Source: a virus. From it: DNA of 58,819 nt. The notes under the pieces were generated by a model. That model made no database searches, was not told the origin of the DNA, and saw only the letters and a list, made by a program, of their open reading frames with translations. Where the stretch lies: positions 1 through 58,819 of the IMG/VR virus record IMGVR_UViG_3300031507_000002. The stretch is one strand, 5' to 3'. Below are positions 2,806 through 32,928 of this stretch, piece by piece. The translations under genes and the position numbers were made by a program. Numbering within the stretch: position 1 is the stretch's first letter; each line of letters opens with the position of its first letter.

Positions 2806-2826
2806 GATCGTGACTCCTCAGAAATG

Positions 2827-2849: not shown

Positions 2850-2879
2850 CGTGGTTCGAACAAATTGAGAACGAAGCGG

Positions 2880-6718: not shown

Positions 6719-6733
6719 GGGGTCTCCAGGAAT

Positions 6734-6918: not shown

Positions 6919-6969
6919 GGAAGTGAAAACGTTTGTGTCGGCAATCGAATCCGACTCTTAGTCGAGAAA

Positions 6970-7949: not shown

Positions 7950-7952
7950 GTT

Positions 7953-10263: not shown

Positions 10264-10320
10264 CTCGTTCGTGACGGCCGCGCCGAGCCCATGCTCGAAG
10301 CGCGGCCACTTCGTTTGGCG

Positions 10321-10947: not shown

Positions 10948-10953
10948 CGAGAA

Positions 10954-11226: not shown

Positions 11227-11405
11227 CGGTGATCCCTCCGCGCCCGCTCGGGCAGCACGAGCTCGTGACCGACGTCGAAGCGCGAGGCCTCGCCGAGAAC
11301 GTCGCGCAGCTTCGGCTTGCGCACCTCGCGCGGCTGAGGCAGCGCAATGCGGCTCGTCATGGCGTCATCGAGCGGGAGGCCGACGAGGTCGAACTGTTGG
11401 CTCAT
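11223..11405 (-). CDS. Small early protein, unknown
   Basis: The start at ATG 11405 (MSQQFDLVGLPLDDAMTS...) overlaps the stop of a tiny upstream frame, giving 60 residues. It is hydrophilic and Arg-rich toward the end (VLPERARRDHR). A longer reading upstream overlaps the helicase 3' end and is not preferred. Function unknown. Confidence 0.45.
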   Translation of the reverse strand: MSQQFDLVGLPLDDAMTSRIALPQPREVRKPKLRDVLGEASRFDVGHELVLPERARRDHR

Positions 11406-11476
11406 GGCGTGCCTTTCGAAACCGGCTGCAAACTCGGGGTTTCTCGGATGGACTGCCGGTCGAGTTGGCGGGTCAT
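11402..11476 (-). CDS. Possible 24-residue coupled mini-ORF
   Basis: ATG 11476 overlaps the helicase stop (ATGA) and its own TGA overlaps the next ATG, so it bridges the helicase gene and the 11405 gene exactly. It would encode MTRQLDRQSIRETPSL and eight further residues. The perfect fit to the operon's overlap style is the only support. It may simply be a translational relay. Confidence 0.3.
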   Translation of the reverse strand: MTRQLDRQSIRETPSLQPVSKGTP

Positions 11477-12429
11477 AGCGCAAACTCTTCATCGATCTGC
11501 TGGTACGCAAGCGCCGGCAAGTACGCGGAACGTGTCGCATCGAACTGATCCGACTTGAACTGCTTTCGTGTCCGGTTGAACCAACCGAGCACTTCCCCGC
11601 ATGCGCCGCTACCGTGTCGCTGCTTCAAGATCGCAATGCGCATCGGCGTCGCGTTGCCGTGTGGGCTGACGGTCTCGTTCTTCGCGCGCCGAACGAAGAC
11701 GACGTTGTCCGCAAGTCGGCCAATGTCTGCGGCGCCGGCGACGTCGTTGATGTCCGGGTCTTGATCCGACGAGACGATCTTGCGCGGATGTGCGACCAGG
11801 TGGATGTGCACACCGGACAACTTCACGGTGCGCAGCAGCGCGTTGGAAAACAGCCGTTGACCTTCCCAGTCTCCCGTCGACACATCCAGGCACATCAGCG
11901 AGTCGATGATCGCGTGCCGCACGCCTTGCCCAGCGAGTACGCGAATTGCCGCGAGCAAGTGCTGATGCGGCGCCGGTAGATCCTCCGAACTCCACAGGCG
12001 CAGGCGCTCTGCCCAGTGATGCACGCACCACTCCAGCCCGGACTGCGTTGGATCTTCCGTGCCGAGCGCAGTGCACGCGTGGCGATAGAACACGTCAACC
12101 GGATATTCCTCCAGCGACGCGATGAACACGCTGCGCTCGCGGTGCATCAGGTGGCAGGCGAGTTGCCGCAGCAGCGTGGTCTTGCCAGCGCCTGGGAATC
12201 CAGACCACACCGTGTAGCCGCCGGGAAACAATCTCAACACACGGCCATCCGGATCGAACGGCGTGGTGTCGAAGTTCTTCTGCCGCGCGATGTGCTGCGC
12301 GCGAATCTCCGTGACGTTGAGCGACTCCAGGTCGAGCAACTCGCGGTCCGGCACAACGTGCTTCTCCAGAAACTTCGGATCGTCTGCCTTGACGAAGATG
12401 CCGCGGAATTTGTTGTTGCCGATTTTCAC
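11473..12429 (-). CDS. Replicative helicase-like RecA-fold ATPase
   Basis: A 318-residue protein with a DnaB/T7 gp4-type RecA core. Walker A is GFPGAGKTT at 77-85, followed by LLRQLACHLM. Walker B lies in HAIIDSLMCLD, and an HIHLVAHPRKI strand corresponds to the conserved helicase H3/H4 region. The downstream GAADIGRLADNVVFVRR is also typical of DnaB C-terminal domains. There is no separate primase domain. It lies two genes after the O-like initiator, where lambdoid phages keep a P loader or a helicase, so it likely unwinds DNA at the phage origin. Confidence 0.75.
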   Translation of the reverse strand: MKIGNNKFRGIFVKADDPKFLEKHVVPDRELLDLESLNVTEIRAQHIARQKNFDTTPFDPDGRVLRLFPGGYTVWSGFPGAGKTTLLRQLACHLMHRERSVFIASLEEYPVDVFYRHACTALGTEDPTQSGLEWCVHHWAERLRLWSSEDLPAPHQHLLAAIRVLAGQGVRHAIIDSLMCLDVSTGDWEGQRLFSNALLRTVKLSGVHIHLVAHPRKIVSSDQDPDINDVAGAADIGRLADNVVFVRRAKNETVSPHGNATPMRIAILKQRHGSGACGEVLGWFNRTRKQFKSDQFDATRSAYLPALAYQQIDEEFAL

Positions 12430-12869
12430 AGGCTCACCGATGCACGCGCGTGAAAGACGACGGTGTCAGCGCGCTCTGGCAGCGGGATAGCCGCAGGTTT
12501 TTCTGCGCCATCTCGCGTCCATGCGTCCATCCAGTTCGCGTGGAAGTGCTTCTCGCCGCACGGCATGACGAACTTCGTCAACTCGCCATAGCACTTGCAC
12601 CAGCATGCGTAACGCGCCGGCTTCACGTCGCGAGCGCACAGCATTCGCACCACGGCCATCGACTTCGCGCAGTCGTCGAAGTGAAAAATCACGTCGAGCC
12701 CATCGAGCAACTCGATCGGCATCGGCTCGCCCGGTGTGTGCACGATCGCCATCACGCCGATCTCATCGAAGCCGTAGGCGAAGCGCCAGGAGGTCGTCAC
12801 GATCAGTCGCATCGCGGGTTGCTGGCCACGTTGCCGTAAGGCACGCAGTTGATCCCATGATGCGTTCAC
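12426..12869 (-). CDS. Early protein between initiator and helicase, unknown
   Basis: A 147-residue protein with several beta strands (MRLIVTTSWRFAYGFDEIGVMAIVHT, LDVIFHFDD) and a cysteine cluster (CARDVKPARYACWCKCYGEL). It overlaps both neighbours by four bases, so it is translated with them. The location suggests a helper in replication, such as a loader or adaptor. I do not recognise the family. Confidence 0.5.
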   Translation of the reverse strand: MNASWDQLRALRQRGQQPAMRLIVTTSWRFAYGFDEIGVMAIVHTPGEPMPIELLDGLDVIFHFDDCAKSMAVVRMLCARDVKPARYACWCKCYGELTKFVMPCGEKHFHANWMDAWTRDGAEKPAAIPLPERADTVVFHARASVSL

Positions 12870-13675
12870 CAGCGCACCGGCCGGCCGTCGCCGTAGGCCA
12901 TCGACGTCTGAGGTGTTGGATCTCGTGGTTTATCGCCCGGCTTGCGTGCGTACTGGCCGCTCGACCAGTGCCCGCTGTCCGGTGCCCATTGCCGCACCAG
13001 GGTCTGCCAGTGCTGGTCCCAATCGACGTACTGCCAGCCTTTCGCCTTCGAGGTGCTCCGGAAGGTTTCCATCAGCGCGATGGGGTCCACTTGCGGTAGG
13101 TGCTTCTCGGCGTAGGCCTGTCGTTCGGGGGTCAGGACGAAGTCTTCAGGGATCGGAATCGTCGTCGCTTTTCGGGGGGTGCGTTGACGCGTGCCTGACG
13201 CGTCCTTCCCCTTCCCTTCCTTCCTTCCTTCCCCTAGTGCATGCACTTCACGCGTGGCGCACGCGTCGTCGTCGCGTGGTTCACGCGTGGCGCACGCGTC
13301 CAAGTCCGTGCCACGGTTATCAATAATCTCCTCTGCCTGTTCAATACCGGGCAGGTCTGACGGAGATTCGCGATTGTTGATAACTTGGTGCTTGGTGAAG
13401 GTCGGAATCCACCCAAACCACTCACTTTTGACGCGATACTTCACAATGAAAGCACGCGTGACCCACGCGTCGAGCACGCGTGAAAAATCGATCTCGTCAT
13501 GAGGGAGGATCTGTGCTTTTAGGGTGCGAGGTCGCCATGCAAATCGACCCTCCCGGTCGGCTACCGTGAACAACATGCACCACGCAAATCGAATCGGAAG
13601 CCCGGTCTGCAACTCAAGGTCAAAGAGATCCTCGTGCGCGGCAAGCTCCGGTTTGATCGTGCGAATGCGTGCCAT
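12866..13675 (-). CDS. Replication initiator, O-like, carrying the origin
   Basis: A 269-residue protein. The N-terminal 115 residues (MARIRTIKPELAAHEDLFDLE, then FAWCMLFTVADREGRF) match the winged-helix N-terminus of phage replisome organiser/O proteins. A low-complexity linker (about 125-175) is encoded by iterons and a polypurine tract. The C-terminal part (PEDFVLTPERQAYAEKHLP, KGWQYVDWDQHWQTLVRQW) is the usual initiator tail that recruits helicase. As in lambda O, the origin sits inside the gene. Helicase and RusA-type genes follow in the same operon. Confidence 0.8.
   Translation of the reverse strand: MARIRTIKPELAAHEDLFDLELQTGLPIRFAWCMLFTVADREGRFAWRPRTLKAQILPHDEIDFSRVLDAWVTRAFIVKYRVKSEWFGWIPTFTKHQVINNRESPSDLPGIEQAEEIIDNRGTDLDACATREPRDDDACATREVHALGEGRKEGKGKDASGTRQRTPRKATTIPIPEDFVLTPERQAYAEKHLPQVDPIALMETFRSTSKAKGWQYVDWDQHWQTLVRQWAPDSGHWSSGQYARKPGDKPRDPTPQTSMAYGDGRPVRW
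13187..13481. repeat. Iteron array, likely phage replication origin
   Basis: Nine exact ACGCGT hexamers start at 13187, 13198, 13250, 13261, 13283, 13294, 13454, 13465 and 13476. A degenerate TCGCGT starts at 13272. Within each cluster the spacing is exactly 11 bases, so five units run in phase from 13250 to 13294. Between the clusters, 13310-13450 is more A/T-rich and holds an imperfect 12-base inverted repeat (13316-13327 and 13373-13384, one mismatch). A pyrimidine tract (13203-13234) abuts the array. Its position inside the O-like gene matches a lambdoid origin. Confidence 0.75.
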
Positions 13676-14076
13676 TACGCCAGCCCCCTATCTCGCTCCA
13701 TTCGCCGCACCTGCTCGTGCGAGCGATCCGCAACAAGCGAGTTCATTGCGGCGATAATTTGGCGACGCTCGTCCTGATCTATCGCGGATAGCAGTCCATC
13801 ACGTAGCTTCTCGATCGTCTTCTCCCGCTGCGCGTCGTCTTCGGTAGGCGCCGGCAGATGCTGTAGTTCGTGGCAGTCGTCGCAAAGCACGACGAGCTCG
13901 ACGTCCGAGTACTCCCACGGCATTCGGCCGCGCACGTACCGGCGGTGATGTACCTGTAGATTCTTGTCGCCGTGGTGACACCGGCTACACCTGAAATCGG
14001 CGCATGCCAGCACTTCCAGCCGACGCTTCTGCCAGCGCGGATCAAGCAACAACTCCCGATACGTCGCGCTGCTCAT
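13675..14076 (-). CDS. HNH endonuclease
   Basis: A 133-residue protein with a compact HNH fold: CSRCHHGDKNLQVHHRRYVRG near 30-50 (zinc cysteines and HH), then DVELVVLCDDCHELQH near 60-75 (the second cysteine pair and catalytic-site His). The N-terminal YRELLLDPRWQKRRLEVL is typical of HNH proteins encoded beside phage replication genes. A helical C-terminal tail follows. It may help packaging or DNA processing. It is coupled to the initiator by a one-base overlap. Confidence 0.8.
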   Translation of the reverse strand: MSSATYRELLLDPRWQKRRLEVLACADFRCSRCHHGDKNLQVHHRRYVRGRMPWEYSDVELVVLCDDCHELQHLPAPTEDDAQREKTIEKLRDGLLSAIDQDERRQIIAAMNSLVADRSHEQVRRMERDRGLA

Positions 14077-14306
14077 TGCGCGCCTTTCGTATCAGTGGTG
14101 CGATACGAATTGATCCGGTTGTACAGCGTCTTGATCGCGATCCCCATCGAGCGCGCCACCGCCGCCTTGTTACCGTTGAACAGTTCCAGCCGGCCTTCGA
14201 TGATTTCGCGCTCGACTTCCTTGAGCGTCTGCAACGAAGCCGGGCGCGCGGAACTTTCGCTGCCGCGACTCGTTTTCTTCTCGCTGACGGTTGCACCCGT
14301 GAGCAT
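14073..14306 (-). CDS. Fis-type (HTH_8) DNA-binding protein
   Basis: A 77-residue protein whose residues 25-68 carry the Fis/NtrC C-terminal helix-turn-helix: LKEVEREIIEGRLELFNGNKAAVARSMGI, then KTLYNRINSY. This domain normally closes sigma-54 activators; here it is free-standing, as in Fis itself. It lies in the early-left operon upstream of the HNH and initiator genes and overlaps HNH by four bases. It may act as an architectural or regulatory DNA binder at the origin or at early promoters; that role is inferred. Confidence 0.65.
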   Translation of the reverse strand: MLTGATVSEKKTSRGSESSARPASLQTLKEVEREIIEGRLELFNGNKAAVARSMGIAIKTLYNRINSYRTTDTKGAQ

Positions 14307-14383
14307 GCTGGAAACCTCACGCCGTCCTAGTCAGGGCGGCTTCTTTTTATGTTCAAGTGTCGGCGCGGCTGCCGTCGTTTGCT

Positions 14384-14638
14384 TCAAGCCGTCTGAGTGG
14401 CCTCGGTGCTCTTCGCCGCCCGCCGCAGTGCTTGCGTCACGCGCCGCTGGACTTCCTTGTTGCCTTGATGTGGAAAATATTTACTCGTCGGCACTTCCGC
14501 GAGACTGCGAAAGACGAGGCCCTGCTTTTCCAGTAGTTCGCGCCGCCGCTGTGCCGCGCCGTCTTTCACTTCCTGCTCAGTGAATAACTCGCGAAGCAGT
14601 GCGCCGTTTGGATATTGCATCTCTTGCATGTGGATCAC
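14384..14638 (-). CDS. Small early protein, unknown
   Basis: An 84-residue basic protein. The GTG at 14638 overlaps the previous stop; an ATG three codons in is the alternative start. Helical segments such as GALLRELFTEQEVKDGAAQRRREL precede a basic tail (RRVTQALRRAAK). An early accessory role is likely; the family is not recognised. Confidence 0.45.
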   Translation of the reverse strand: MIHMQEMQYPNGALLRELFTEQEVKDGAAQRRRELLEKQGLVFRSLAEVPTSKYFPHQGNKEVQRRVTQALRRAAKSTEATQTA

Positions 14639-14910
14639 CCGTGCCCTGATCGTTCGTGTTCCGGGGCTGTTCGCGGCCCGCCCCAGGTCGGCCGATGACC
14701 CGTCTTTTCCTCAATGATGTCGGAGACGATGTCGCGCATCATCAACATGAACGCTTCCTTACGTTCGGGATTGTTCGCGACCGCGCCCATGCGAATTGAG
14801 CCGAGGAAGATAGAGTCCGCGATGCTGTCAGGCAGCGCGTAGTAGGCGCTCCAGTTGTCACCCTCGACGCGCATGGCGAGGCGGCCGACTTGTACGATGG
14901 ACGTATTCAT
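14635..14910 (-). CDS. Small early protein, unknown
   Basis: The ATG at 14910 (MNTSIVQVGRLAMRVEGDNWSAYYAL...) overlaps the stop of the upstream 52-residue gene in ATGA fashion, giving 91 residues. It contains a beta-rich first half and a helix (KEAFMLMMRDIVSDIIEE). Such short proteins of the NWSAYYA type occur in phage early operons without known function. Confidence 0.5.
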   Translation of the reverse strand: MNTSIVQVGRLAMRVEGDNWSAYYALPDSIADSIFLGSIRMGAVANNPERKEAFMLMMRDIVSDIIEEKTGHRPTWGGPRTAPEHERSGHG

Positions 14911-15065
14911 AGCTGCGCCTCCCGCGCAAAAATCTGCTGCAGCTCGCCCATCGACGCCAGTTCCTTGATGCGCGCTAAGAACTCTTGCTCGCGACGATCG
15001 CAGTAGGCGCGGATCGCTTCGCGCTGATCGACGGTGAGGCCGCTGTTGGTTAGTTCGTCGGTCAT
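14907..15065 (-). CDS. 52-residue helical protein
   Basis: ATG 15065 overlaps the stop of the PAPS-reductase-like gene and its TGA overlaps the next ATG. The product (MTDELTNSGLTVDQREAIRA...) reads as two amphipathic helices with REQEFLARIKELASMGELQQ. The four-base overlaps on both sides make it very likely real. Function unknown. Confidence 0.5.
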   Translation of the reverse strand: MTDELTNSGLTVDQREAIRAYCDRREQEFLARIKELASMGELQQIFAREAQL

Positions 15066-16003
15066 TCGCACAACCCATAAAGCGAACTACACGCCGGTTG
15101 TGGCGCCGTGCGGATAAAGTCAGCCTGCCGTCCACCGCGAGCCGTCTGCGCCCACTTCACACGCTGATCGATGCGAAGCCGGTCAAATATCTCCGCGTCT
15201 GTCTCCGCGTCTTGCAGAGCGTCACAAAAGAATGTCGTCCACTGTCGCTTGCTCGCAAGCGACACTAGCCGTTCCCATTCGCGAATTTTGTCGATGTGCT
15301 CAGGGAAGCGGCGGCTGATCTCCAGCAACTCGTCCTTGCCGCAGTTGATGCACGGCATGCAACCGACGCGCTTCATCCCTAAGCTGTACAGCGGATTGAG
15401 CTTCAGGCCGCGCGCATGGTGTTCGGCGATCACCTGGCCGGCAGTCATGTCGACGATGGGATGAACGATGGTCCAGCCCTCGGCGGCGCGCTCCCGCGGC
15501 ACAGCGTCACGGCGGTTCTGGCTCTCATCACGCCGAATGCCGCGCCAGCTTTCCAAGTCGAACCCCTGCGCGAGCAGCTCCATCATGTAGGCGTCCAGCG
15601 GCCCGCGCTTCAACTCCTGGGTGCAGAACTGGGCCATCCGCGAAGGAAAGCGCCCTTTCCATAAGCAAAGGTCGAGAAACGGCACACCGGTTGGATGTAG
15701 GACGCCCAGTGCGCGCTGCACGATGTCATCGGGCACGCCCTTTGATGGCCACACGGTTTCGACATAGATGCGTTTGCGCGCTATGTGCTGGGCGAAGTCG
15801 GCCTTGACCGTAGCGATTTCACCGAAAAACGTGCGCAGGTATGCAAGGTGCTGGTAGACGAGTTCGTGCTCGTTGCCGGTATCAGCGAACACGAAGCGGC
15901 AGTTGTCGATGCCGAGTGCGTCCACGGCTCGTGCGGCCGTGATGCCGCTGTCCTTGCCGGTGGACATTGAGACGACAGCGAGAGTTTTACGCGCCGTCGT
16001 CAT
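15062..16003 (-). CDS. PAPS reductase / PP-loop family protein
   Basis: A 313-residue protein with the PP-loop SMSTGKDSG at 12-20. A Rossmann-like core follows (CRFVFADTGNEHELVYQHL, VETVWPSKG), and a four-cysteine stretch contains VGCMPCINCGKDEL. Phage members of the phosphoadenylyl-sulfate reductase family activate a substrate with ATP. Roles proposed for the family include sulphur metabolism, DNA phosphorothioation (DndC-type) and nucleobase modification. No Dnd neighbour is visible here, so the substrate cannot be stated. It is early, next to the CII-like gene, which suggests a function soon after infection. Confidence 0.7.
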   Translation of the reverse strand: MTTARKTLAVVSMSTGKDSGITAARAVDALGIDNCRFVFADTGNEHELVYQHLAYLRTFFGEIATVKADFAQHIARKRIYVETVWPSKGVPDDIVQRALGVLHPTGVPFLDLCLWKGRFPSRMAQFCTQELKRGPLDAYMMELLAQGFDLESWRGIRRDESQNRRDAVPRERAAEGWTIVHPIVDMTAGQVIAEHHARGLKLNPLYSLGMKRVGCMPCINCGKDELLEISRRFPEHIDKIREWERLVSLASKRQWTTFFCDALQDAETDAEIFDRLRIDQRVKWAQTARGGRQADFIRTAPQPACSSLYGLCE

Positions 16004-21883: not shown

Positions 21884-22077
21884 GCTACACGACCAACGGC
21901 CCACTGCTCGCCACGTTCATCGAGCGCCGCACACCGAAGAGCCCTTTCTTGGAAGACCTCGAAGCGCGTCAGAAGGACGAGCGCGAGCGCCGCGAGGCGG
22001 AACTCATCCGGCGGGCGATCGCAGATCGCAAGGGTTCAGTGCTGCAGTTCGGGAAGGCCGCGGGGGGAGCGCGATGA
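21880..22077 (+). CDS. Small charged protein preceding the recombination module
   Basis: A 65-residue charged protein (MSYTTNGPLLATFIERRTPK...) with a helix FLEDLEARQKDERERREAEL. It overlaps the nuclease gene by four bases. It may be an accessory of the recombination proteins by position; no motif is recognised. Confidence 0.45.
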   Translation: MSYTTNGPLLATFIERRTPKSPFLEDLEARQKDERERREAELIRRAIADRKGSVLQFGKAAGGAR

Positions 22078-22961
22078 GTGCTGCACTGAAAGTCGAGCCG
22101 TTTGCGCGCATTCTCGATGTCAGCGAGAAGCAATATTTCGCTGATCCATGCGAGGTGCCATCGCTGAGTCAGAGCATTGCACACAAGATGGTGGCGGGCT
22201 CGCCGCTGCATGCCTGGACAGTGCATCCGAAGCTCGGCAAGCAGGACGATGCCGAAGAGGACGACACGAAGGCGAAAGTTGACGGGAAGATCCTGCACCG
22301 ACTGCTGCTCGGCAAGGGCGCCGACATCGTTGTTTGTCCGTTCAACGACTTCAGGACGAGCGTTGCCAAGGCGATGCGCGACGAAGCGATCTTGAATGGC
22401 AAGGTGCCGATCATCGAACACAAGATGGCCGAGGCCGCTGCGGCGGCGGAATTCCTGCGCGAGAAGCTTGCGGCCCGCGGGTTCGTGCTCGACGGGCAGT
22501 CCGAAGTCGCATTTGAATGGCATGAGGCCGGCGAACACGGGCCCGTGGTATGCCGCGGCCGGATGGATCACATCCGCCTCGATGACACGTTCGCGCAGAT
22601 CCTCGACCCTAAGAAAATCAGATCGGCGGACCCGCGCACCTGCAGCCGCCACTTCTATGAGTTCGGCCACGACATCCAGCACGCCGCTTACAGAAGCGCG
22701 ATGCAGAAGTTTCGGCCGGATCTGGGTGAGCACCAGATCGACATGGTGTTCCTGTTCATGGAGTTCGAGCCACCGTATGCCGTCACGCCCGTGCGGCCGA
22801 GCCCGGCGTTTCAGGAGATCGGCCGGCAGCGCTGGGACCGCGCCGTTCTCTTGTGGGAGCGCTGCCTGCGAACCAACTCCTGGCCGGAATACTGCACCGA
22901 TTCGATCGACCTTGAGCCGCAGCCATGGGTGATGAACCAGGAGATCGGCAGTGAGTGGTAG
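22074..22961 (+). CDS. PD-(D/E)XK nuclease, RecE/DUF3799-like
   Basis: A 295-residue protein of the Cas4/RecE-type nuclease group. It starts with a segment seen in DUF3799 proteins (EVPSLSQSIAHKMVAGSPLHA), then VDGKILHRLLLG. The catalytic region is VCRGRMDHIRLDDTF...QILDPKKIRSADP near 160-190, giving the D...D-K triad, followed by HDIQHAAYRSAM, the family's Q...Y motif. It likely resects double-stranded ends for phage recombination, together with the two ATPases that follow. Start and stop overlap neighbours. Confidence 0.8.
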   Translation: MSAALKVEPFARILDVSEKQYFADPCEVPSLSQSIAHKMVAGSPLHAWTVHPKLGKQDDAEEDDTKAKVDGKILHRLLLGKGADIVVCPFNDFRTSVAKAMRDEAILNGKVPIIEHKMAEAAAAAEFLREKLAARGFVLDGQSEVAFEWHEAGEHGPVVCRGRMDHIRLDDTFAQILDPKKIRSADPRTCSRHFYEFGHDIQHAAYRSAMQKFRPDLGEHQIDMVFLFMEFEPPYAVTPVRPSPAFQEIGRQRWDRAVLLWERCLRTNSWPEYCTDSIDLEPQPWVMNQEIGSEW

Positions 22962-24165
22962 AACCGCGCGCTTGTTCGAGGTCTCGCGGCGCGATGTCCC
23001 GTATCGCCAAGCGATCATCGTCGGTATCACAGGCCCGTCGTTCTCGGGCAAGACGTATTCGGCGATGCGGATGGGCGCTGGGTTCGTGAGAATACTTGGC
23101 GGGAAGATGCACGTCATCGACACCGAGGCAGATCGCGCTCGCCACTACGAGGACTACTTCGACTTCGAGCACGTGCCGTTCCCGGCGCCTCACGGGCCAC
23201 TCGACTATATCGACGCAATCGATAGTTGCGTCGCGCGCGGCGCCAGCGTCATCGTCATCGACAACATGACGCATGAGCACGACGGCGAGGGCGGCGTGCT
23301 CGATCAGATCGAACGATTTATGGAGATAAAGGAGAAGGAGTACGTCGAGAAGGGATGGTCGTTCAACCGCGAAATATTCAACTTCAGCGCTCAGATCGTG
23401 CCGAAGCGCCAGCGCAAGAAACTGAACCAGCGCATCGTCCAGCTCGGCAAGCAAGTCGTGTTCATCCTGCTTTATCAGGCTCAGGAGAAGATCCGGCCCC
23501 GCAAGAAGGGAGAGACGGACAAGGACGGCAAAGCTATTCGCGAGCCGGAAGACATGGGCTGGCAGCCGGTCACCACGTCGATCCTGCCTCGTGACATGAC
23601 CGTGCGTTTTCTGCTCACGCCAGCCTGCGACGGTGTACCGCTCCTGTTGCCGCCGAATCCCCAGGAAAAGAAGCTCATCAAGCAGCCGGAAATGTTCAAG
23701 GGCTGGTTTCGAGAAGGCGACCAGATCAACGAGGTGATGGGCGAGCGCTTGGCGAACTGGGCGATCGGCAAGTCAAAAATGAAAGTACCCGCCACGTCGA
23801 CATCATCTGCACCCGCTGCGCCAACTGCCGCTGAGTACAACGCATGCACTGACCGCGCAGTGCTCGACATTCTCGAAAAGCGTCGCGCCGACATCTGGAA
23901 AAAGATGCCACCCGGCGCGGAGAAGGAAGCGCTCAAGCTGGCAAGCGAAGCAGCGAAGGCGCGCTTGGCCGCCAAGACCGCAACCGCGAAGCCGAACTAC
24001 GACGCTGCCTCCGCCATCGCCGCCTTACGCGTCTGCGAAGACGACCTGACGCGCGGTGCCGTGTGGAAGGAAATCACCGACTACTACAACGCCGCGATGC
24101 TCGACCTGCCGATCGACGTCGAGGCCGTCAATGTGGAGATGCGAGAGAAGTTCGCGCAACTCTAA
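22951..24165 (+). CDS. RecA-like AAA ATPase (AAA_24-type) of the recombination module
   Basis: A 404-residue protein that starts with GTG inside the nuclease gene's end. Walker A is GPSFSGKT at 28-35, with Walker B VIVIDNM near 100-106. A VDLxY-like region follows (VIDTEADRARHYEDYFDFEH). The middle has QIVPKRQRKKLNQRIVQLGKQVVFILLYQ, typical of phage AAA_24 proteins related to RecA/Sak4. The C-terminal 130 residues are helical and linker-like. These proteins often promote single-strand annealing or repair, which suits a place between a nuclease and an SbcC-like ATPase. Confidence 0.75.
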   Translation: MSGRTARLFEVSRRDVPYRQAIIVGITGPSFSGKTYSAMRMGAGFVRILGGKMHVIDTEADRARHYEDYFDFEHVPFPAPHGPLDYIDAIDSCVARGASVIVIDNMTHEHDGEGGVLDQIERFMEIKEKEYVEKGWSFNREIFNFSAQIVPKRQRKKLNQRIVQLGKQVVFILLYQAQEKIRPRKKGETDKDGKAIREPEDMGWQPVTTSILPRDMTVRFLLTPACDGVPLLLPPNPQEKKLIKQPEMFKGWFREGDQINEVMGERLANWAIGKSKMKVPATSTSSAPAAPTAAEYNACTDRAVLDILEKRRADIWKKMPPGAEKEALKLASEAAKARLAAKTATAKPNYDAASAIAALRVCEDDLTRGAVWKEITDYYNAAMLDLPIDVEAVNVEMREKFAQL

Positions 24166-24266: not shown

Positions 24267-25781
24267 ATGACAATTCGTGTGACACGCCTGGAATGCGAGA
24301 ACTTCATGAAGCTCGTCGCCGTCGACATCAAGTTCGACGGACGAGTGACCGAGTTCGCCGGCAAGAATGGCGCTGGCAAATCCACGTTGTTCCTTGCGAT
24401 CAAGTGCTCGCTCGAAGGCAAGGACGCAATGCCGACGGACCCAATCCGTCACGGCACCGAGCAAAGCTTCATTCGCACGCATTTGGCCGGCGACGACGAA
24501 AGCGGCCTGGTCATCACGTGCCGTCTGCGCGAAGGCGGCGAAGGCCAGGTCATCAGGGACTTAGTGCTTGAGACCCCGGAAGGCGCACGGTTCCCCTCGC
24601 CGCAAGCGCACTTGAAAAAGCTCATCAGCGATCATCTGCTTGATCCGCTGGAGTTCATCGAGAAGCTGACCGCCAAGGAGCAATACGACGCGCTTCGCGG
24701 GTTCGTGCCCGGTTTCGATTTCGAAACCAACGAGCGCATGCGCAAGGGCGCGTTCGAAAAGCGCACCGAGATTGGCCGCGACCAGAAGAAGGCACAAGCC
24801 GCCGCCGATGCGGTTGACGTGCTGGACAAGGCACCGGGCGAGCGCATTGATGAGGCTGCGCTGACGGCCGAATTGCAGTCGGCCGGCGAAAAGAACACCG
24901 ACACCGAGCGGCGTCGATCGAATCGCGAGAAGGCCACCGGCCGCGTGGTTGAATTGCGCACGGCCGCGACGAAGCGCGCGACTGATTCGGATCTGGTCAT
25001 CGCGGCGATGAATCGCCAGATCGAGGAGTTGAAGTCGCGCATTTTGGCCGAGGTAGACGGAAGACAGGCCGACATAAATCGATTGAACGTGGAAGCGAAT
25101 GAACTGCAGGCCAAGCTTGACGCCGCCGATCCGCTTCCAGAGATGGTCGATGCTGCCGTGATCTCCACGAAGCTCGGCGAAGCTCGGCGATGCAATCGCG
25201 CGATCGAGGATTGGGAAACGCAGCGCGCTCGAAAGCAGCAGCAGCAACGCGACGCCGATAACCTGTCCGCGCAGTACGACGCATTGACCATCAAGATCGA
25301 CGCATACGATCAATCGAAAAAGGATGCAATCCAGCAAGCGAAGCTGCCCGTCAAGGGGCTTGGCTTCGGCGACGGCGCCATCACGTTCAACGATGCGCCT
25401 TTCAAACAGGCCAGCAAGGGCGAGCAGATGCGCACGGCATTCGCCTTATCGGTCGCGAAACGCCCCGAGTTGCGATTCTGCTGGATCCGCGACGCATCGT
25501 TGCTCGATGACGAAGGTCTCGCGCTCGTTCATCAGATGGCCGAGGAATTCGACTGCCAGGTGCTTCTGGAATTTGTCCGGCCGAACTCGTCGAACTCGAT
25601 AGTGATCGAAGACGGTCGTGTTCAGGGCGTTGAATTGCCGCCGTCCAAGTTCGCCGCGCCAACTGGCGAACTGGAGTTGACCGGACAAGATCCGTCAAAA
25701 CCTGACGGCGCCATGAAGAACAAAACGAAGTCCGCCAAGAAACCCTGGCGCGGCCCGAACGCGCCGACAGACGCAGCATGA
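24267..25781 (+). CDS. SMC/RecF/SbcC-like ATPase
   Basis: The ATG at 24267 (MTIRVTRLECENFMKLV) gives 504 residues; the preceding part of the frame overlaps the ATPase gene. Walker A is GKNGAGKST at 32-40. A long coiled coil occupies about 180-370. The C-terminal lobe has an SKGEQMRTAFALSVAK signature and a Walker B-like RFCWIRDASLLDDEGL. This is the layout of RecF/SbcC-type proteins that tether and process DNA ends. No SbcD nuclease is adjacent; the PD-(D/E)XK protein may serve that part. Confidence 0.75.
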   Translation: MTIRVTRLECENFMKLVAVDIKFDGRVTEFAGKNGAGKSTLFLAIKCSLEGKDAMPTDPIRHGTEQSFIRTHLAGDDESGLVITCRLREGGEGQVIRDLVLETPEGARFPSPQAHLKKLISDHLLDPLEFIEKLTAKEQYDALRGFVPGFDFETNERMRKGAFEKRTEIGRDQKKAQAAADAVDVLDKAPGERIDEAALTAELQSAGEKNTDTERRRSNREKATGRVVELRTAATKRATDSDLVIAAMNRQIEELKSRILAEVDGRQADINRLNVEANELQAKLDAADPLPEMVDAAVISTKLGEARRCNRAIEDWETQRARKQQQQRDADNLSAQYDALTIKIDAYDQSKKDAIQQAKLPVKGLGFGDGAITFNDAPFKQASKGEQMRTAFALSVAKRPELRFCWIRDASLLDDEGLALVHQMAEEFDCQVLLEFVRPNSSNSIVIEDGRVQGVELPPSKFAAPTGELELTGQDPSKPDGAMKNKTKSAKKPWRGPNAPTDAA

Positions 25782-26049: not shown

Positions 26050-26472
26050 ATGGACTCCGCGACTCGCTTCACCAAGATCGGCGCCGACGGCGCCGTGCTC
26101 GACCGCTCGGCGACCGAATGGGACGCCGTGCTCGACAACCGCACTGGCCTCATGTGGCCCGTCAAGGCGACCAAGGTGCCGAACTGGAAGAAGGCCGAAG
26201 CCGCGGCGGCGAAGTGCCGCGCGGCCGGCTTCGATGACTATCGGCTTCCCACGGTCGACGAACTGTTCGCGCTCGCTGATCGCACGCGCTATTCGCCATC
26301 GATCGACACCGACTACTTCCCGGACTGCCCATCCGATTGGTTCTGGTCGAGCACTCCATATGCGCTATCGCCCGGCGGTTACGCGTGGGTCGTCTTCTTC
26401 TACGACGGCTTCGCGTTCTACGCCTACCGCAGCTACGTCGGTTTCGTTCGTGCCGTGCGCGTCGGTCAGTAA
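26050..26472 (+). CDS. DGR target protein 1, DUF1566/Lcl-like (C-type-lectin fold)
   Basis: ATG 26050 follows AAGGA by seven bases; ATG 26008, with AAGGA nine bases upstream, is a second possibility. The 140-residue product is one DUF1566/Lcl-type domain: TEWDAVLDNRTGLMWPV, CRAAGFDDYRLPTVDEL, FWSSTPYA and a closing GFVRAVRVGQ. DGR target proteins use this C-type-lectin-like fold to display a variable ligand-binding surface. Its last 36 residues are the variable repeat. There is no signal peptide and no tail adaptor, so where it acts is open. Confidence 0.8.
   Translation: MDSATRFTKIGADGAVLDRSATEWDAVLDNRTGLMWPVKATKVPNWKKAEAAAAKCRAAGFDDYRLPTVDELFALADRTRYSPSIDTDYFPDCPSDWFWSSTPYALSPGGYAWVVFFYDGFAFYAYRSYVGFVRAVRVGQ
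26359..26466 (+). repeat. DGR variable repeat 1 (VR1)
   Basis: This segment aligns without gaps to the template repeat (27533-27640, offset 1174). Over the last 100 bases there are 15 mismatches, all at template adenines; three more adenine mismatches occur in the eight bases before. The last 28 bases carry no adenine and are identical in all copies. The first base after the repeat is C here and G in the template, the expected IMH versus IMH* difference. Confidence 0.9.
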
Positions 26473-26507
26473 ATCTGTCCTTTGGCTCTTCAACGATGGG
26501 GAATGAC

Positions 26508-27035
26508 ATGCGATCAGTTATCGAGCTGCTTCGGAAAGAGATCATCGCGGACGCGCAGAGCGCTGATGCGCGCACCGTGTTCGGCATGGCGATGGCGCTG
26601 TGCGACGAGCCGAGCCTGGTGCAGCTCGTCGCCGCGGCAAAGCAGCCGCTGATCCAGCCGCGCTTCGAAGTGATTGGCGACATCGTGCGCGATCACAGCA
26701 CGGGACTGGAGTGGACACGCAGCAACGTGCCGGGCGAGCGTATGGAATGGGCCGCAGCAGAGAAGGCCTGCGCCGGCCTGGACCTTGCTGGCCATAAGGA
26801 CTGGCGGCTCCCGACGATCAAGGAATTGCTGTCCATCGTGGACTACGATCGCGCCAGCCCTGCGATCGACACCGACGCCTTCAACTGCGAGTCGGCTTGG
26901 TACTGGAGTTCGACTCCTTACAAGCCTTCGCCCGGCGATTACGCGTGGCTCGTCTACTTCAGCTACGGCGGCGCGAACTACGACTGCCGCGGCTACGGCG
27001 GTTTCGTTCGTGCCGTGCGCGTCGGTCAGTTCTAG
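26508..27035 (+). CDS. DGR target protein 2, DUF1566/Lcl-like with N-terminal helical region
   Basis: ATG 26508 follows GGGGA by five bases and gives 175 residues. The first 55 residues are helical (MRSVIELLRKEIIADAQSAD...) and absent from target 1. A DUF1566-type domain follows: FEVIGDIVRDHSTGLEW, CAGLDLAGHKDWRLPTIKEL, YWSSTPYK, ending GFVRAVRVGQF. It is a paralogue of target 1 and ends in VR2. No export signal is visible. Two tandem targets sharing one template are less usual than a single target and may give two independently variable ligands. Confidence 0.85.
   Translation: MRSVIELLRKEIIADAQSADARTVFGMAMALCDEPSLVQLVAAAKQPLIQPRFEVIGDIVRDHSTGLEWTRSNVPGERMEWAAAEKACAGLDLAGHKDWRLPTIKELLSIVDYDRASPAIDTDAFNCESAWYWSSTPYKPSPGDYAWLVYFSYGGANYDCRGYGGFVRAVRVGQF
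26925..27026 (+). repeat. DGR variable repeat 2 (VR2)
   Basis: Aligned without gaps to template 27539-27640 (offset 614). Within the 100-base core, 13 mismatches occur, all at template adenines, and a different set from VR1. One more adenine mismatch lies just before the core. At the eight AAC codons of the template, VR2 reads L, Y, S, Y, G, N, G, Y where VR1 reads V, F, Y, D, F, F, S, Y. The closing 28 adenine-free bases are unchanged. Confidence 0.9.
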
Positions 27036-27054
27036 GCCCATTGGGATTTAGGAC

Positions 27055-27483
27055 ATGAGCCACGAAGCACCTCCGATAGTAAAACTTGCCGAGCGCGTCC
27101 TCGGGGAGATCGAAGAAGCTGTCCGCAGCTTTCCGCGCTTCCATAAGTACGCGTCCGGCGAGGAGTTGCGCGCCGCCGCCAGAAAGGTAGCGCGGGCTTC
27201 GCATCGGGCGTGGCGAGTTCACGAGCGCCGCGGCGATCTCATCAGCGTGCTGGTGTTCGCCGTGGATGATCTCAAGTTGGAAATGCAAGTATCGAAGCGC
27301 CTCGCGGCTTTCAAGAGCTTCGCGCAATTCGAGGCGCTGATCCGCCTCATCGACGATCTCGGCCGGCAGTGTGGAGGCTGGCAGAACAAGCATCCGAAGG
27401 GCCAGAACTCGCGGACACCATCGTCCGCGGGGCGTGCTCAGATACTGAGTGCCCGGGACGCCTCGCAAGGGGCCAATCCATGA
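27055..27483 (+). CDS. avd: Accessory variability determinant (Avd-like four-helix protein)
   Basis: A 142-residue basic helical protein. Residues 1-110 form four helices of the S23/Avd kind (VKLAERVLGEIEEAVRSFPR, LRAAARKVARASHRAWRVHE, LISVLVFAVDDLKLEMQVSK, FAQFEALIRLIDDLGRQCGG) and end with the NKHPKGQN type of tail. Avd binds the reverse transcriptase and template RNA as a pentameric barrel and is needed for mutagenic homing. It sits between the targets and the template, the Bordetella phage BPP-1 order. Its stop overlaps the RT start, and its last codons supply the RT's AAGGGG Shine-Dalgarno. Confidence 0.85.
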   Translation: MSHEAPPIVKLAERVLGEIEEAVRSFPRFHKYASGEELRAAARKVARASHRAWRVHERRGDLISVLVFAVDDLKLEMQVSKRLAAFKSFAQFEALIRLIDDLGRQCGGWQNKHPKGQNSRTPSSAGRAQILSARDASQGANP

Positions 27484-28880
27484 CGAAGCTGCCCTACCCC
27501 ATGGATGGACAGCCGGGTCGCAAGTTCTCGGGAAAGCGCAATCGCCCGGCGATTACGCGTGGAACGTCAACTTCAACAACGGCAACGCGAACTACGACTA
27601 CCGCAACAACGACGGTTTCGTTCGTGCCGTGCGCGTCGGTGAGTGTCACGGATGTCACCCTGCGAACTCTCTACACTGCCTGGCGCGAGGCCCGCCGCGG
27701 CAAGAAGCCGAGCCAGAATCAACTGCGCTTCGAATCATTCTGGACGGACGGCCTGCTTCGACTGCAAGAGCGGCTCGACGCGGGAATCTGGGCGCCGGCA
27801 CCACCGACTTGCTTTGTGGCGCTCCTACCGAAGGCCCGCGAGATCCACGCGCCGGACTTCGGCGATCGCGTCGTACATCACTGGCTGGTGCCGCAGCTGG
27901 AGCGCATCTACGAGCCGGGCTTCATCCACGACAGCTTCTCGAACCGCGCCGGCAAGGGCACACACGCCGCTGTCGCGCGGCTCCAATCCTTCGTGCGCCA
28001 GGTCGAGCGCGGCCAGGGTGGCGGCTGGTTCCTGCAACTCGACATCCATAACTTCTTCAACTCCATCCACCGGCCGACGCTGTACGCGCTTCTGAAGGAT
28101 CGGATGACGCGGCATGGCGTGGCGCTGCCGGCCCGGCGCGCTGTCCATGCTCTGTTGCGCAACTCGCCGCTGCATGCCGGCGTGCGCTACCGCTGCACCG
28201 ACGCTGAGCGCGCGCGAATCCCGCCGCACAAACAGCTTGCCAACGCGGCGCCGGGCTGCGGCATTGCCATCGGCAACCTGTCGTCGCAGTTCTTCGCCAA
28301 CGTCTACATGAACGAACTGGATCAGTTCGTGAAGCACGTGCTGAAGGTGTCTCGCTACATCCGCTACGTCGACGACTTCGTGCTGATCCATGAGAGCCGC
28401 GAGCAGTTGGCGTCGTGGCGCGGACAGATCGAGCAGTTCCTGCAGCAGCGCCTGCGCCTCAAGCTGAAGGCCGAGCAGCACCTGAAGCCGCTGGCTTCCG
28501 GCATCGACTTCCTGGGCTATATCGTGCGCGCGACGCACTGCATCGTCCGCCGGCGCGTCGTCCATCATGCCCAGATGAAGCTGCGCGCCTGGCAACGCGC
28601 GCATGTGCGCAGCCGCTACCTGCGCGCGACGCCGGCGCAGTACCGACAGATCGCGTCTGTATGGCAGTCGTACCTCGGCCACTTCTCGCACGCCGCAAGC
28701 GGCCGTCTGCATCAGCACTTCCACCGAGACTTCCCCTGGCTGCGCTGCGCGATGGCGCGCCGGCGGTTCGATCATCGATGGGAAGGGCGGGCCCTATCCG
28801 TGCGCCGCGGCCGCTCGGTCAATGGCGCGCTGACAAAGACATACCGCCCCAAGCCCTCACCAGAAGGACTCGCGCGATGA
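27480..28880 (+). CDS. DGR reverse transcriptase, with TR-encoded N-terminus
   Basis: A DGR-class RT. ATG 27480 overlaps the avd stop and follows AAGGGG by seven bases, giving 466 residues. The frame stays open through the template repeat, making residues about 18-54 Thr-rich. A GTG at 27639 would give 413 residues but lacks a Shine-Dalgarno. RT motifs are clear: TLRTLYTAWREARRGK (60-75), FLQLDIHNFFNSI (184-196), the DGR hallmark IGNLSSQ (264-270), catalytic YVDD (296-299) and GIDFLGY (341-347). It copies TR RNA with adenine infidelity and seeds the variable repeats. It overlaps the exonuclease start by four bases. Confidence 0.9.
   Translation: MTKLPYPMDGQPGRKFSGKRNRPAITRGTSTSTTATRTTTTATTTVSFVPCASVSVTDVTLRTLYTAWREARRGKKPSQNQLRFESFWTDGLLRLQERLDAGIWAPAPPTCFVALLPKAREIHAPDFGDRVVHHWLVPQLERIYEPGFIHDSFSNRAGKGTHAAVARLQSFVRQVERGQGGGWFLQLDIHNFFNSIHRPTLYALLKDRMTRHGVALPARRAVHALLRNSPLHAGVRYRCTDAERARIPPHKQLANAAPGCGIAIGNLSSQFFANVYMNELDQFVKHVLKVSRYIRYVDDFVLIHESREQLASWRGQIEQFLQQRLRLKLKAEQHLKPLASGIDFLGYIVRATHCIVRRRVVHHAQMKLRAWQRAHVRSRYLRATPAQYRQIASVWQSYLGHFSHAASGRLHQHFHRDFPWLRCAMARRRFDHRWEGRALSVRRGRSVNGALTKTYRPKPSPEGLAR
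27533..27640 (+). repeat. DGR template repeat (TR)
   Basis: A 108-base template containing 23 adenines in its 100-base core (27541-27640), among them eight AAC codons in the target frame. It ends in a 28-base adenine-free block (27613-27640). Relative to the targets it reads W-N-V-N-F-N-N-G-N-A-N-Y-D-Y-R-N-N-D. It lies between avd and the conserved part of the RT. In the RT frame it has no stop codon and is therefore part of a continuous reading frame from the avd/RT overlap. Confidence 0.95.
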
Positions 28881-29716
28881 CCACCTTGATCTTCGACACC
28901 GAACTCACCGACCGTAAGAACGGCGAAATCATTGAAGCCGCATGGCTTCGCCTGCTGCCGCGCGCGGATCTGGCGGGCACGGCCGACCTGATCGACCTGA
29001 CCATCTTCGACGAGTGGCATTCTTTCTTCCAACCGGCCAGCCCGATCTCGTTCGGTTCGATGGCAGTACACCACATCCTGCCGGAGCAGCTCGTCGGCCA
29101 TCCGCCGTCGTCGACGTTCGAACTGCCGTCGCTCACGAGCTACGTTGTCGGCCACAGCATCGACACAGACTGGCAAGCGGCCGGCTCGCCGGCCCAGGTC
29201 AAGCGCATCGACACGCACGCCATCGCGCAATGGTTGTGGCCGGACGCGACCGGCTACTCGCAGACCGCGCTCATTTACATGCTCGAAGGCGCAACGGCCG
29301 AGACGCGCGCGATGGTGAAGAACGCGCACAGCGCCCTCGCCGACGTCCACCTCAACTACGGACTGCTGCGCCACATTCTGAAGTTGAAGCCGGAGATCAC
29401 GACTTGGTCGGAGCTATGGACGTACTCGGAAGCGTGCCGCATCCCGCGCACCTGTCCGCTCAAGCGATGGGATGGCGTGTTGCTCGCCGACATGGATGAC
29501 GGCGCGATCCGTTGGTGTCTCGATCAGCACTGGCTCGATCCGTATTTTCGGACTGGACTGGAGAACGTCATGCGCGAGCGGTATCCGCAGGGCAAGACGA
29601 TTCGCCATGAATTCGACGATGGCGATGACGACTATCTCGATGAGCCTGACGATGACGATGACCGATGGGACGACGATCAGCGCGAAGGGCCGCAAGACAT
29701 GGAGTCGCAGTCATGA
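28877..29716 (+). CDS. DnaQ/ExoX-like 3'-5' exonuclease
   Basis: A 279-residue protein with DEDD exonuclease motifs: Exo I FDTELTD at 6-12, Exo II VGHSIDTDWQAAG near 94-106, and Exo III HSALADVHLNYGLL near 154-167, of the HxAxxD type. The C-terminal 50 residues are extremely acidic (DDGDDDYLDEPDDDDDRWD), which may be a flexible partner-binding tail. It follows the DGR RT with a four-base overlap. A role in phage recombination, or in trimming DGR cDNA, is possible; only the nuclease fold is supported. Confidence 0.75.
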   Translation: MTTLIFDTELTDRKNGEIIEAAWLRLLPRADLAGTADLIDLTIFDEWHSFFQPASPISFGSMAVHHILPEQLVGHPPSSTFELPSLTSYVVGHSIDTDWQAAGSPAQVKRIDTHAIAQWLWPDATGYSQTALIYMLEGATAETRAMVKNAHSALADVHLNYGLLRHILKLKPEITTWSELWTYSEACRIPRTCPLKRWDGVLLADMDDGAIRWCLDQHWLDPYFRTGLENVMRERYPQGKTIRHEFDDGDDDYLDEPDDDDDRWDDDQREGPQDMESQS

Positions 29717-29899: not shown

Positions 29900-30412
29900 A
29901 TGAGCGCCAACGCAGTCATCGCAGCGCGCACCTACGATGCCAAGGTGCATCGTTTCATCGCCCATCGCGTGCATAACCCGGCCGACGTCGACGATCTTGC
30001 GCAGGAGGTCTACCTGCAACTCGTCCGTCAACAGGGAGCCATCGATAACCCAGGCGCATACCTTTTCGGCATTGTCGCGAATGTCGTCTCGGATTTCCGC
30101 AAGGATCGCTATCGCTACTGCGGATTCATCACGACCGACAGCGAACTTGTCGGTGAGGCAGCAGTGCGCTGCGCGAGTGGCGAGGACTTGGAGGCGCGGC
30201 TCCACGTGCAGCAACAGGTGGAAAGAACGCTCGCGCTGTTACCGCCCATGCAAGCGGCTGTGTTGCGGGCACACGAGGGGGATGGACTGTCCTATCTGGA
30301 GACGGCCAAAGAACTCGGACTGAGGCCGCTCACGGTCAAGAAATATCTGATGCTCGCGAAGTCGACGTTGCGGGCGATGCGGATCGAGATGAAAGCGCAG
30401 GGGCTGAAATGA
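29900..30412 (+). CDS. ECF-type RNA polymerase sigma factor
   Basis: A 170-residue protein with both sigma domains of the ECF group (FecI-like). Region 2 is at about 15-75: VHRFIAHRVHNPADVDDLAQ, EVYLQLVRQ, then PGAYLFGIVANVVSDFRKDR. Region 4 is at about 110-165: LALLPPMQAAVLRAHEGDGL, SYLETAKELGLRPLTVKKYL. No anti-sigma gene is adjacent. Encoded in the early-right operon just after the DGR, it could redirect host polymerase to some phage promoters or serve the lysogen. Its target promoters are unknown. Confidence 0.85.
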   Translation: MSANAVIAARTYDAKVHRFIAHRVHNPADVDDLAQEVYLQLVRQQGAIDNPGAYLFGIVANVVSDFRKDRYRYCGFITTDSELVGEAAVRCASGEDLEARLHVQQQVERTLALLPPMQAAVLRAHEGDGLSYLETAKELGLRPLTVKKYLMLAKSTLRAMRIEMKAQGLK

Positions 30413-30851: not shown

Positions 30852-31252
30852 AAACGCCTCCGATACTGATGAGCGCGCCGATGGTGAGGTCGCTACTTGC
30901 TGGAGCAAAGACGCAAACGCGGCGGATCATCAAGCCGCAGCCACAGAAGTTGAACGCCGCTGAGTTCCAGTGGAAGAACGGGCTGTGCGCGATGAATTGG
31001 CTTGAGAAACAGTCACCCTTTGGGCTTCGTGGCGAGCGCGTGTGGGTGCGCGAGGCATGGCGCGCGCCGAAATCGCTCGACGATCTCAGCGGCACGAAAA
31101 TTGGTGAGAAGGCAATCGACGCCGGCTACCGCAAGCCGTGGAGTCCGATTCAGTTCGAAGCAGACCAGTCGCAGGTGAACGATTGGGTTGGCTTCGGGGT
31201 TCATCCGAATACCGCCGTGCCTGGCCGCTATCGGCCCGCATCGCCAAGATGA
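30848..31252 (+). pseudogene. Truncated ASCH-like phage protein (C-terminus lost)
   Basis: 134 residues beginning MKTPPILMSAPMVRSLLAGA and KTQTRRIIKPQPQ, the hallmark of a widespread phage protein family related to ASCH domains. Family members normally continue after GERVWVREAWRAP and GRYRP with a WASR-containing beta core. Here the sequence ends PGRYRPASPR at the join with the helicase-like gene, and the expected C-terminal part is missing. An internal deletion that fused it to the next gene is the simplest reading. It may retain partial function, but I treat it as a broken gene. Confidence 0.6.
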
Positions 31253-32928
31253 TGAAACTGCGTACCGAGGATCCAGGCGCACACCGCGTCATCTGGCATG
31301 ACCTTGAATCCGAGCGCGCCGCGATCGAGGCAGCCGTCCCGGGCATCTCCACGGTCTACGGCACCCAGGAACTGGAGGACCGCGAGCAGCGCGTTGCCGA
31401 CTTCAGCATGGGGGTGACACCCGAACTCGCAGCCAAGCCCGTGATGTTGGGCAGCGGCTGCAATCTGCAGCGGCACTGCCATTGGGCGATCTACCTCGGC
31501 ATCGGGTTCAAGTTCAACGACTGGATTCAGAGCCTCCACCGCCTGCAGCGATTCCTGCAGCTCTCCCAGGTCCGCATCGACCTGATCTACACCGAGGCCG
31601 AGCGTGAAGTGCGCCGCAGCCTCGAACGCAAGTGGAAACAACACAATGAGATGGTCGAAAAGATGACCGCAATCATTCGCGAACATGGGCTGGCTCACGC
31701 AGCAATGGCCCAAGTATTGACGCGCGCGATCGGCGTCGAGCGCATGGAAGTCAAGGGCGACAACTACCGGCTTGTGAACAACGACTGCGTGCTGGAGACG
31801 CAGCGGATGGACGAGAGCAGCGTCGACCTGGTGCTCACCTCCATTCCCTTCAGTTCGCAGTACGAGTACTCACCGAACTATGCCGATTTCGGGCACAGCG
31901 ACAACAACGCGCACTTCTTCGAGCAGATGGATTTCCTGACGCCGAACCTGCTGCGAGTGTTGAAGCCCGGCCGCGTTGCTGCCATCCACGTCAAGGATCG
32001 AATCGTGCCCAGCGGGATGACCGGCCTGGGGATGCAGACCGTCTACCCGTTCCACGCGAAGTGCATCGAGCACTACGTCAAGCACGGCTTCGCGTACATG
32101 GGCATGAAGACGATCGTCACCGACGTCGTGCGGGAGAACAACCAGACCTATCGCCTGGGATGGTCGGAGCAATGCAAGGACGGCTCCAAGATGGGAGTCG
32201 GCATGCCCGAGTACTTGTTGCTCTTCCGAAAGCCGCCGACCGACACCGCCAACAGTTACGCCGATCAGCCAGTCCTGAAAGGCAAGCCACTGTGCGTCGA
32301 CGCCAACGGCAACGCGGTCCCCTTCGATCGGAAGCTGCCCATCATTCCGAATACCGGCTACTCACGATCGCGCTGGCAGATCGACGCGCACGGCTTCACC
32401 AGGTCATCGGGCAATCGACCGATCACGGCAAAGGACTTCGACGGCGTCCCGCACAGTACGATCTTCAAGCTGTTCCGCGACTTCGAACTCACGAACGTGT
32501 ACGACTTCGAGCATCACGTCGCGCTCGGTGAATCCCTCGAAGCGCGCGGCGCCCTCCCCGTCACCTTCATGCTGCTGCAGCCGCCGTCATGGCATCCGGA
32601 TGTGTGGAGCGACATCACGCGCATGCTCACGATGAATGGCGCGCAGTCGGCGAAGGGCAAGGAGAAGCACCTTTGTCCGATGCAGTTCGATATCGCGGAT
32701 CGCGTGATCGAACAGTTCTCAATGCCGGGCGATCTGGTGTACGACCCGTTCGCAGGCCTCGGCACCGTCCCGTATCGCGCCGTGCTGAAGGGCCGGCGAG
32801 GCCTGGGATGCGAACTGAGCGTGCCGTACTGGCTCGACAGCGCGGCCTACTGCGCCGCGGCCGAGCGGAAGATGGCGATGCCTGATCTGCTGGCATTCGA
32901 TGAGCGCAATGATGGCGAGGCCGCCTGA
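31249..32928 (+). CDS. Helicase C-terminal remnant fused to a DNA methyltransferase
   Basis: From ATG 31249, 559 residues. Residues 1-130 carry SNF2/SF2 helicase motifs V-VI only: VMLGSGCNLQRHCHWAIYLG, then WIQSLHRLQRFLQ. The Walker A half is absent. The rest is a type II DNA methylase: LTSIPFSSQYEYSPNY near 200-215 (SPPY-like motif IV) and YDPFAGLGTVPYRAVL near 515-530 (motif I). It would modify phage DNA against host restriction, possibly as an adenine or N4-cytosine methylase. The loss of motifs I-IV fits a deletion junction shared with the preceding truncated gene. Confidence 0.7.
   Translation: MMKLRTEDPGAHRVIWHDLESERAAIEAAVPGISTVYGTQELEDREQRVADFSMGVTPELAAKPVMLGSGCNLQRHCHWAIYLGIGFKFNDWIQSLHRLQRFLQLSQVRIDLIYTEAEREVRRSLERKWKQHNEMVEKMTAIIREHGLAHAAMAQVLTRAIGVERMEVKGDNYRLVNNDCVLETQRMDESSVDLVLTSIPFSSQYEYSPNYADFGHSDNNAHFFEQMDFLTPNLLRVLKPGRVAAIHVKDRIVPSGMTGLGMQTVYPFHAKCIEHYVKHGFAYMGMKTIVTDVVRENNQTYRLGWSEQCKDGSKMGVGMPEYLLLFRKPPTDTANSYADQPVLKGKPLCVDANGNAVPFDRKLPIIPNTGYSRSRWQIDAHGFTRSSGNRPITAKDFDGVPHSTIFKLFRDFELTNVYDFEHHVALGESLEARGALPVTFMLLQPPSWHPDVWSDITRMLTMNGAQSAKGKEKHLCPMQFDIADRVIEQFSMPGDLVYDPFAGLGTVPYRAVLKGRRGLGCELSVPYWLDSAAYCAAAERKMAMPDLLAFDERNDGEAA

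Follow-up and report, generated by a model that had tools for sequence, protein, structure and literature searches.

In Bordetella phage BPP-1, the diversity-generating retroelement (DGR) is arranged mtd-avd-TR-brt: the template repeat (TR) directly adjoins avd, and 144 nt of spacer separate it from the reverse transcriptase (RT) gene brt. That spacer is described as an RNA structure to which the RT-Avd complex is recruited and which provides the adenine used for priming (PMC12875486). A global survey found that most viral DGR targets are annotated as tail proteins (PMC8144416). Cassettes with multiple targets, DUF1566 pairs included, are already known (PMC10743442, PMC11792537, PMC6642488), and overlap of the TR with the RT open reading frame defined structural group 3 of DGRs in 2012 (PMC3521204). 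We describe here a phage DGR that combines paired DUF1566 targets with a TR lying inside the RT reading frame, and the family to which it belongs.

The DNA analysed was the whole of IMG/VR record IMGVR_UViG_3300031507_000002 (58,819 nt; hereafter the window). The phage is a temperate siphophage: its TerL, portal, head, tape measure and tail J genes occupy 42.5-58.3 kb of the minus strand, and the plus strand carries an integrase gene at 36.7 kb. When its DNA was compared with isolate phages, the structural genes had no match and the remainder gave only short matches in the RT gene. The cassette lies within a plus-strand early operon, 3' of genes for an exonuclease VIII-like protein (22074-22961), an AAA ATPase (22951-24165) and an SbcC/RecF-like ATPase (24267-25781). 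Downstream are a plus-strand gene resembling a DNA polymerase exonuclease subunit (28877..29716; phrog_192, 6.6e-32), whose start overlaps the RT stop codon (ATGA, 28877-28880), and an ECF sigma factor gene. The tail genes are thus on the strand opposite the cassette, whose neighbours are early recombination genes. A role for the AAA protein as a RecA-like annealing protein was considered and dropped, as a sequence search gave no solved homologue.

A complete DGR had been predicted here from the bare sequence, and profile matches confirmed its parts: two Lcl_C targets, Avd, TR and RT. The first target, T1 (140 aa; 26050..26472, plus strand), matches Lcl_C (PF07603/DUF1566) at 9.3e-27 and carries variable repeat VR1 at its 3' end; the second, T2 (175 aa; 26508..27035, plus strand), matches the same family at 5.6e-32 and holds VR2. 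Ribosome-binding sites make 26050 and 26508 the most likely starts, with 26496 an alternative for T2. The T2 model (pLDDT 88.6) places a C-type-lectin-like domain after N-terminal helices; its nearest solved fold is the C-terminal domain of Legionella Lcl (8q4e), to which it is linked by fold and weak sequence similarity only, and C-type lectins were also matched. Both targets are accordingly predicted to have a C-type-lectin fold, with the VR at the 3' end of the gene. The accessory protein gene avd (142 aa; 27055..27483, plus strand) matches phrog_3206, ‘Avd protein of DGR’, at 2.6e-12, with weaker support from NCBIfam DivGenRetAVD (2.2e-8) and Pfam bAvd (2e-5), both below cut-off. The RT reading frame (466 aa; 27480..28880, plus strand) matches phrog_1423 at 9.6e-93, with the RT domain starting at about 27654, and the product is homologous to BPP-1 brt (tblastn 7e-30). 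Its translation contains the hallmark motifs that had been pointed out, GNLSSQ and YVDD (DGR-type GxxxSQ and YxDD). The RT family profile found 8ub7 as its best solved match (E 1e-50), whose chain is labelled just ‘Reverse transcriptase’. In a defence-system scan the targets and Avd had no PADLOC match, and the RT matched generic RT models only.

The cores of the TR (27541..27640), VR1 (26367..26466) and VR2 (26927..27026), all on the plus strand, were compared by gap-free alignment over 100 nt. VR1 differs from the TR at 15 positions and VR2 at 13, and all 28 differences fall on the 23 TR adenines, confirming the predicted counts base for base. The chance of this is about 0.23^28, or roughly 1e-18, if mismatches are assumed to be random over the 100 positions. 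Both alignments extend outwards without any non-adenine change, TR 27533-27640 pairing with VR1 26359-26466 and TR 27538-27640 with VR2 26924-27026. The last 28 bases (27613-27640) are adenine-free and identical in the three copies, again as predicted; they open an IMH*-like TR 3' end (27613..27647, plus strand) in which they are followed by GGTGAGT, where every VR has GGTCAGT, and the first change beyond the core is G27641 to C in both VRs. These are the only three copies of the repeat in the record, and an exact IMH search of viral_contigs, a set that may lack near relatives of the window, gave no match. Nine adenines are changed in both VRs, four of them to the same base, which is about the agreement expected by chance from the observed usage of G, T and C and therefore fits the earlier suggestion that VR1 and VR2 were rewritten independently of one another. 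By codon position 1/2/3 in the VR frame, the TR adenines number 8/14/1 (n=23). None of the TR codons can mutate to a stop, and about 5e13 distinct proteins could be made from the template.

Scans with the RT yielded 51 viral and 67 cellular loci. The close RT group shares about 54-69% RT identity, mostly has 2-4 VRs, and has known hosts that include Dokdonella, Rhodanobacter, Rudaea and Stenotrophomonas. The family comprises at least 25 phage or prophage DGRs, with RT clade support of 100/99. Nearly all members have 2-4 Lcl_C targets; the two targets of the window, offered in the original prediction as a contrast to BPP-1, are present, but two or more is the family rule rather than a peculiarity. 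In 57 TR-VR pairs pooled from the clade, changes affected 769 of 1333 TR adenines but just 7 of 4581 other bases, and the distinction between GGTGAGT in TRs and GGTCAGT in VRs was universal among the repeats compared. The prediction had named a lack of VR variation in every relative as a refutation; adenine-restricted VR turnover was found in L019, L020 and L025 (88-89% identical). VR sites lying under TR adenines differ by 33-79% among these three loci while the TR adenines themselves differ by 0-4%, so the VRs have been rewritten on a fixed template; other VR sites differ by 3-10% and the target sequence outside the VR by 9-11%. These comparisons indicate recent DGR activity in the relatives.

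A tree of targets built outside the VR places T1 and T2 in separate lineages, with kin of each in sister phages, and on this phylogenetic evidence they are not recent duplicates in the window phage. Recent target duplicates do occur in some other family members, such as L011. The idea that T1 and T2 represent fixed orthologous positions throughout the family was rejected, as the target tree is not sorted by position.

The surroundings of the cassette recur in the relatives. Wherever a relative gave a strong portal match (8/8) or had tail J (6/6), that gene and the cassette were on opposite strands, roughly 9 kb or more apart. Several relatives have recombination or replication genes upstream and a methyltransferase or integrase downstream, the neighbours including RecE/Bet-type recombination genes, processivity factors, methyltransferases and integrases. 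Judged from gene order, the early, non-tail position of the cassette is a family trait. A hydrophobic N-terminal segment was present in 0/34 targets, the single match falling within the VR region, in a hydropathy test that is a crude substitute for signal-peptide prediction. Because the targets are in an early operon, lack secretion signals and lie away from the tail genes, they could work inside the lysogen or the infected cell instead of serving as tail fibres, a reading to which we give even weight. The original statement that the targets are not tail genes therefore holds for their location, on the opposite strand and away from the tail genes, but they may yet have a virion role.

The most distinctive feature of the family is the placement of the TR. 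The order target, avd, TR, RT had been equated with that of BPP-1 and is indeed found, but the TR is inside the RT frame and the 144-nt spacer is missing. In 25/25 clade members an open RT frame extends from a start at or near the avd stop codon, across the TR, to the RT domain. This start usually overlaps the stop as ATGA, and does so in the window, where the frame begins at 27480, 5' of the TR. A conserved leader runs from the avd stop to the TR (27480..27540, plus strand). In relatives it encodes MTKPxYPxGWxAGSQVxGKA; in the window phage it carries a 1-nt shift. The gap between the TR end and the RT domain is 13-34 nt in the clade (14 nt in the window, 17 nt in its sister L005), compared with about 144-224 or 415-527 nt in other DGR lineages, nearly all of which lack a spanning frame. 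The TR-in-RT trait maps to a single clade (support 100/99), while the short gap is already seen in closer outgroups. Most relatives read the TR in the VR frame, giving an Asn-rich stretch, e.g. VNFNNGNVNNNHRNNN, ahead of the RT domain, and an Lcl_C profile search independently matched this lectin tail in relatives' open frames of 447-625 aa.

We consider that the RT is probably translated through the TR. The spacing from TR to RT domain is 1 mod 3 in 23/25 members; the exceptions are the window and L005, where the TR is read one frame over and indels before and after it, differing in place between the two phages, restore the RT frame. Residues 1-56 of the window RT are predicted to be disordered, and translation of the RT may be passive at this N-terminus. 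A codon-position test for protein-level constraint on the leader was suggestive only (p=0.08). The leader is thus not clearly backed as purely protein-coding, and part of its conservation may be at the RNA or DNA level. For the sequence after the TR, the consensus folding energy was -0.05 kcal/mol with no compensatory pair, and lowered synonymous variation was not found in the 5' part of the RT gene; neither analysis revealed a substitute for the BPP-1 spacer. No description of frame-conserved TR translation was found in the literature covered, which took in few subscription papers.

The main competing explanation is a conventional DGR of the BPP-1 kind: the targets would be virion adhesins with genes apart from the other tail genes, RT synthesis would begin at a GTG close to the end of the TR, and the open TR frame would be a harmless leftover of lectin-gene origin. 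GTG codons at the TR end could indeed start the RT in several members (27639 in the window), but L006, L009 and L056 have no standard start codon, GTG included, between the leader and the RT domain. A leftover frame would also sit poorly with spacing that changes in multiples of three in 23/25 members and with offsetting shifts in the other two. As regards the targets, viral DGRs mostly act on proteins annotated as tail proteins (PMC8144416), and a phage adhesin needs no signal peptide; set against this, wherever cassette and structural genes were both located they are on opposite strands, and T1 has no clear virion-anchoring part, with only about 25 residues outside its lectin domain. We regard this explanation as a serious contender, though one we would sooner bet against. 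A second alternative, that the cassette is a decayed DGR with a fossil TR-VR set and an inactive RT, draws on the fact that the window TR differs from the VRs in its frame within the RT gene, through two small indels. The RT motifs and frame are intact, neither VR has a single non-adenine difference over 100 nt and VRs turn over in close relatives, making decay very improbable. Finally, conservation between tandem paralogues through duplication or gene conversion rather than retrohoming can be dismissed, even though the two targets are paralogous and share a fold and recent target duplicates exist in members such as L011, as drift or conversion would not restrict 28/28 changes in the window, nor 769/776 in the 57 pairs, to template adenines, and T1 and T2 belong to different target-tree lineages outside the VR. 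The window cassette is almost certainly a genuine DGR that uses one template for two lectin-like genes.

On the model of BPP-1, the TR part of the cassette RNA would be reverse-transcribed by the RT-Avd complex, the RT would misincorporate opposite TR adenines, and the cDNA would replace VR1 or VR2 beside the IMH GGTCAGT, so that the C-terminal faces of two C-type-lectin-fold proteins would be varied independently. RT translation would begin at the ATG at the avd stop, cross the short leader and then the TR, and continue into the RT domain, and the RT mRNA would itself be the template RNA, with no non-coding spacer after the TR. More broadly, we tentatively propose a class of spacer-less phage DGRs in which translation begins at a start codon that overlaps the avd stop and turns the coding TR into a disordered N-terminal extension of the RT, the template is the RT mRNA, on which the RT could act in cis, and the proteins varied are small early or lysogeny lectin-fold proteins rather than tail fibres; for this full set of properties the chances fall a little short of even. 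In a spacer-less family with its TR in a translated frame, either the RNA structure supplied by the spacer must lie elsewhere or cDNA synthesis must start differently. Should two or more hypervariable proteins of lectin fold prove to be early and non-virion, phage DGRs would serve more than changes of host receptor.

What this analysis adds to the original prediction is the clade, evidence that the DGR has been active in relatives, an early position away from the tail genes that the family shares, and the TR within the RT frame without the BPP-1 spacer. The window and BPP-1 are alike in the order of target, avd, TR and RT, in adenine-only changes and in an IMH-like tail. The single BPP-1 target is a tail tropism protein, whereas the window has two Lcl_C targets in an early operon. 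BPP-1 also has an 8-bp hairpin 3' of its VR; a hairpin of this type was not found after the window VRs, where the longest perfect stem is 3 bp in both cases, although the BPP-1 control recovered its 8 bp. A candidate GGTC...GGCC stem across the VR end was present in 19/58 VRs, with full pairing in 25/58 VRs and 0/26 TRs; it shows no broad covariation and is absent from VR1 of the window. The group 3 DGRs of PMC3521204 share the overlap of TR and RT frame with the present clade (25/25 members), but as presented in the available part of that paper the group is an annotation-drawn class, in which frame conservation, the leader, ATGA coupling and spacer loss are not described. The multi-target DUF1566 DGRs of PMC6642488, including Stenotrophomonas sp. 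SKA14 and a case with one TR and two VRs, likewise serve several Lcl_C/DUF1566 targets with C-terminal VRs from one cassette; these are bacterial sequences, and the accessible text of that study describes no analysis of TR translation, early regions or phage clades. Faecalibacterium prophages and nd4/nd12-like phages (PMC11792537, PMC10743442) also pair two C-lectin-type targets with one TR, but their targets belong to other families (DUF6273, Mtd-like, tentaclins), some of them tail-like.

A conserved motif, GGTCAGTAATTGGCC(TTTTGG), runs across the end of the variable repeat (VR) and the stop codon in approximately one-third of VRs, as judged from 58 VR 3′ ends drawn from the window and from relatives L004–L063, which were found in the reverse transcriptase (RT)-based scans. 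The motif might fold into a short stem, or it might be a site where a protein acts.

Directly downstream of the diversity-generating retroelement (DGR) and the exonuclease gene that follows it lies a gene for a sigma-70 (ECF-type) factor (29900–30412), part of the early operon of the phage; its product may regulate the cassette or the late genes at the level of expression. Helicase-like (phrog_16) and DNA methyltransferase-like (phrog_67) parts share a single reading frame at 31249–32928, a longer relative of which (860 aa) adjoins the DGR of locus L007.

The first 16 000 nucleotides (1–16000) hold a long series of minus-strand genes, several large members of which (1188–2303, 3865–5238 and 5450–6718) had no match in the PHROG comparison of this region. 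A minus-strand gene at 15062–16003 resembles phosphoadenosine phosphosulfate reductase (phrog_424, 4e-62) and is a predicted auxiliary metabolic or DNA-modification-type gene.

Close spacing between the template repeat (TR) and the RT domain extends beyond the clade of 25 phage and prophage DGRs with the TR inside the RT reading frame. The gammaproteobacterial DGRs L060, L064, L065, L066, L067, L077 and L085, which fall outside this clade, have the TR 14–57 nt from the RT domain, and some targets in this set lie 3′ of the RT. The short TR–RT gap may predate the full TR-in-RT frame.
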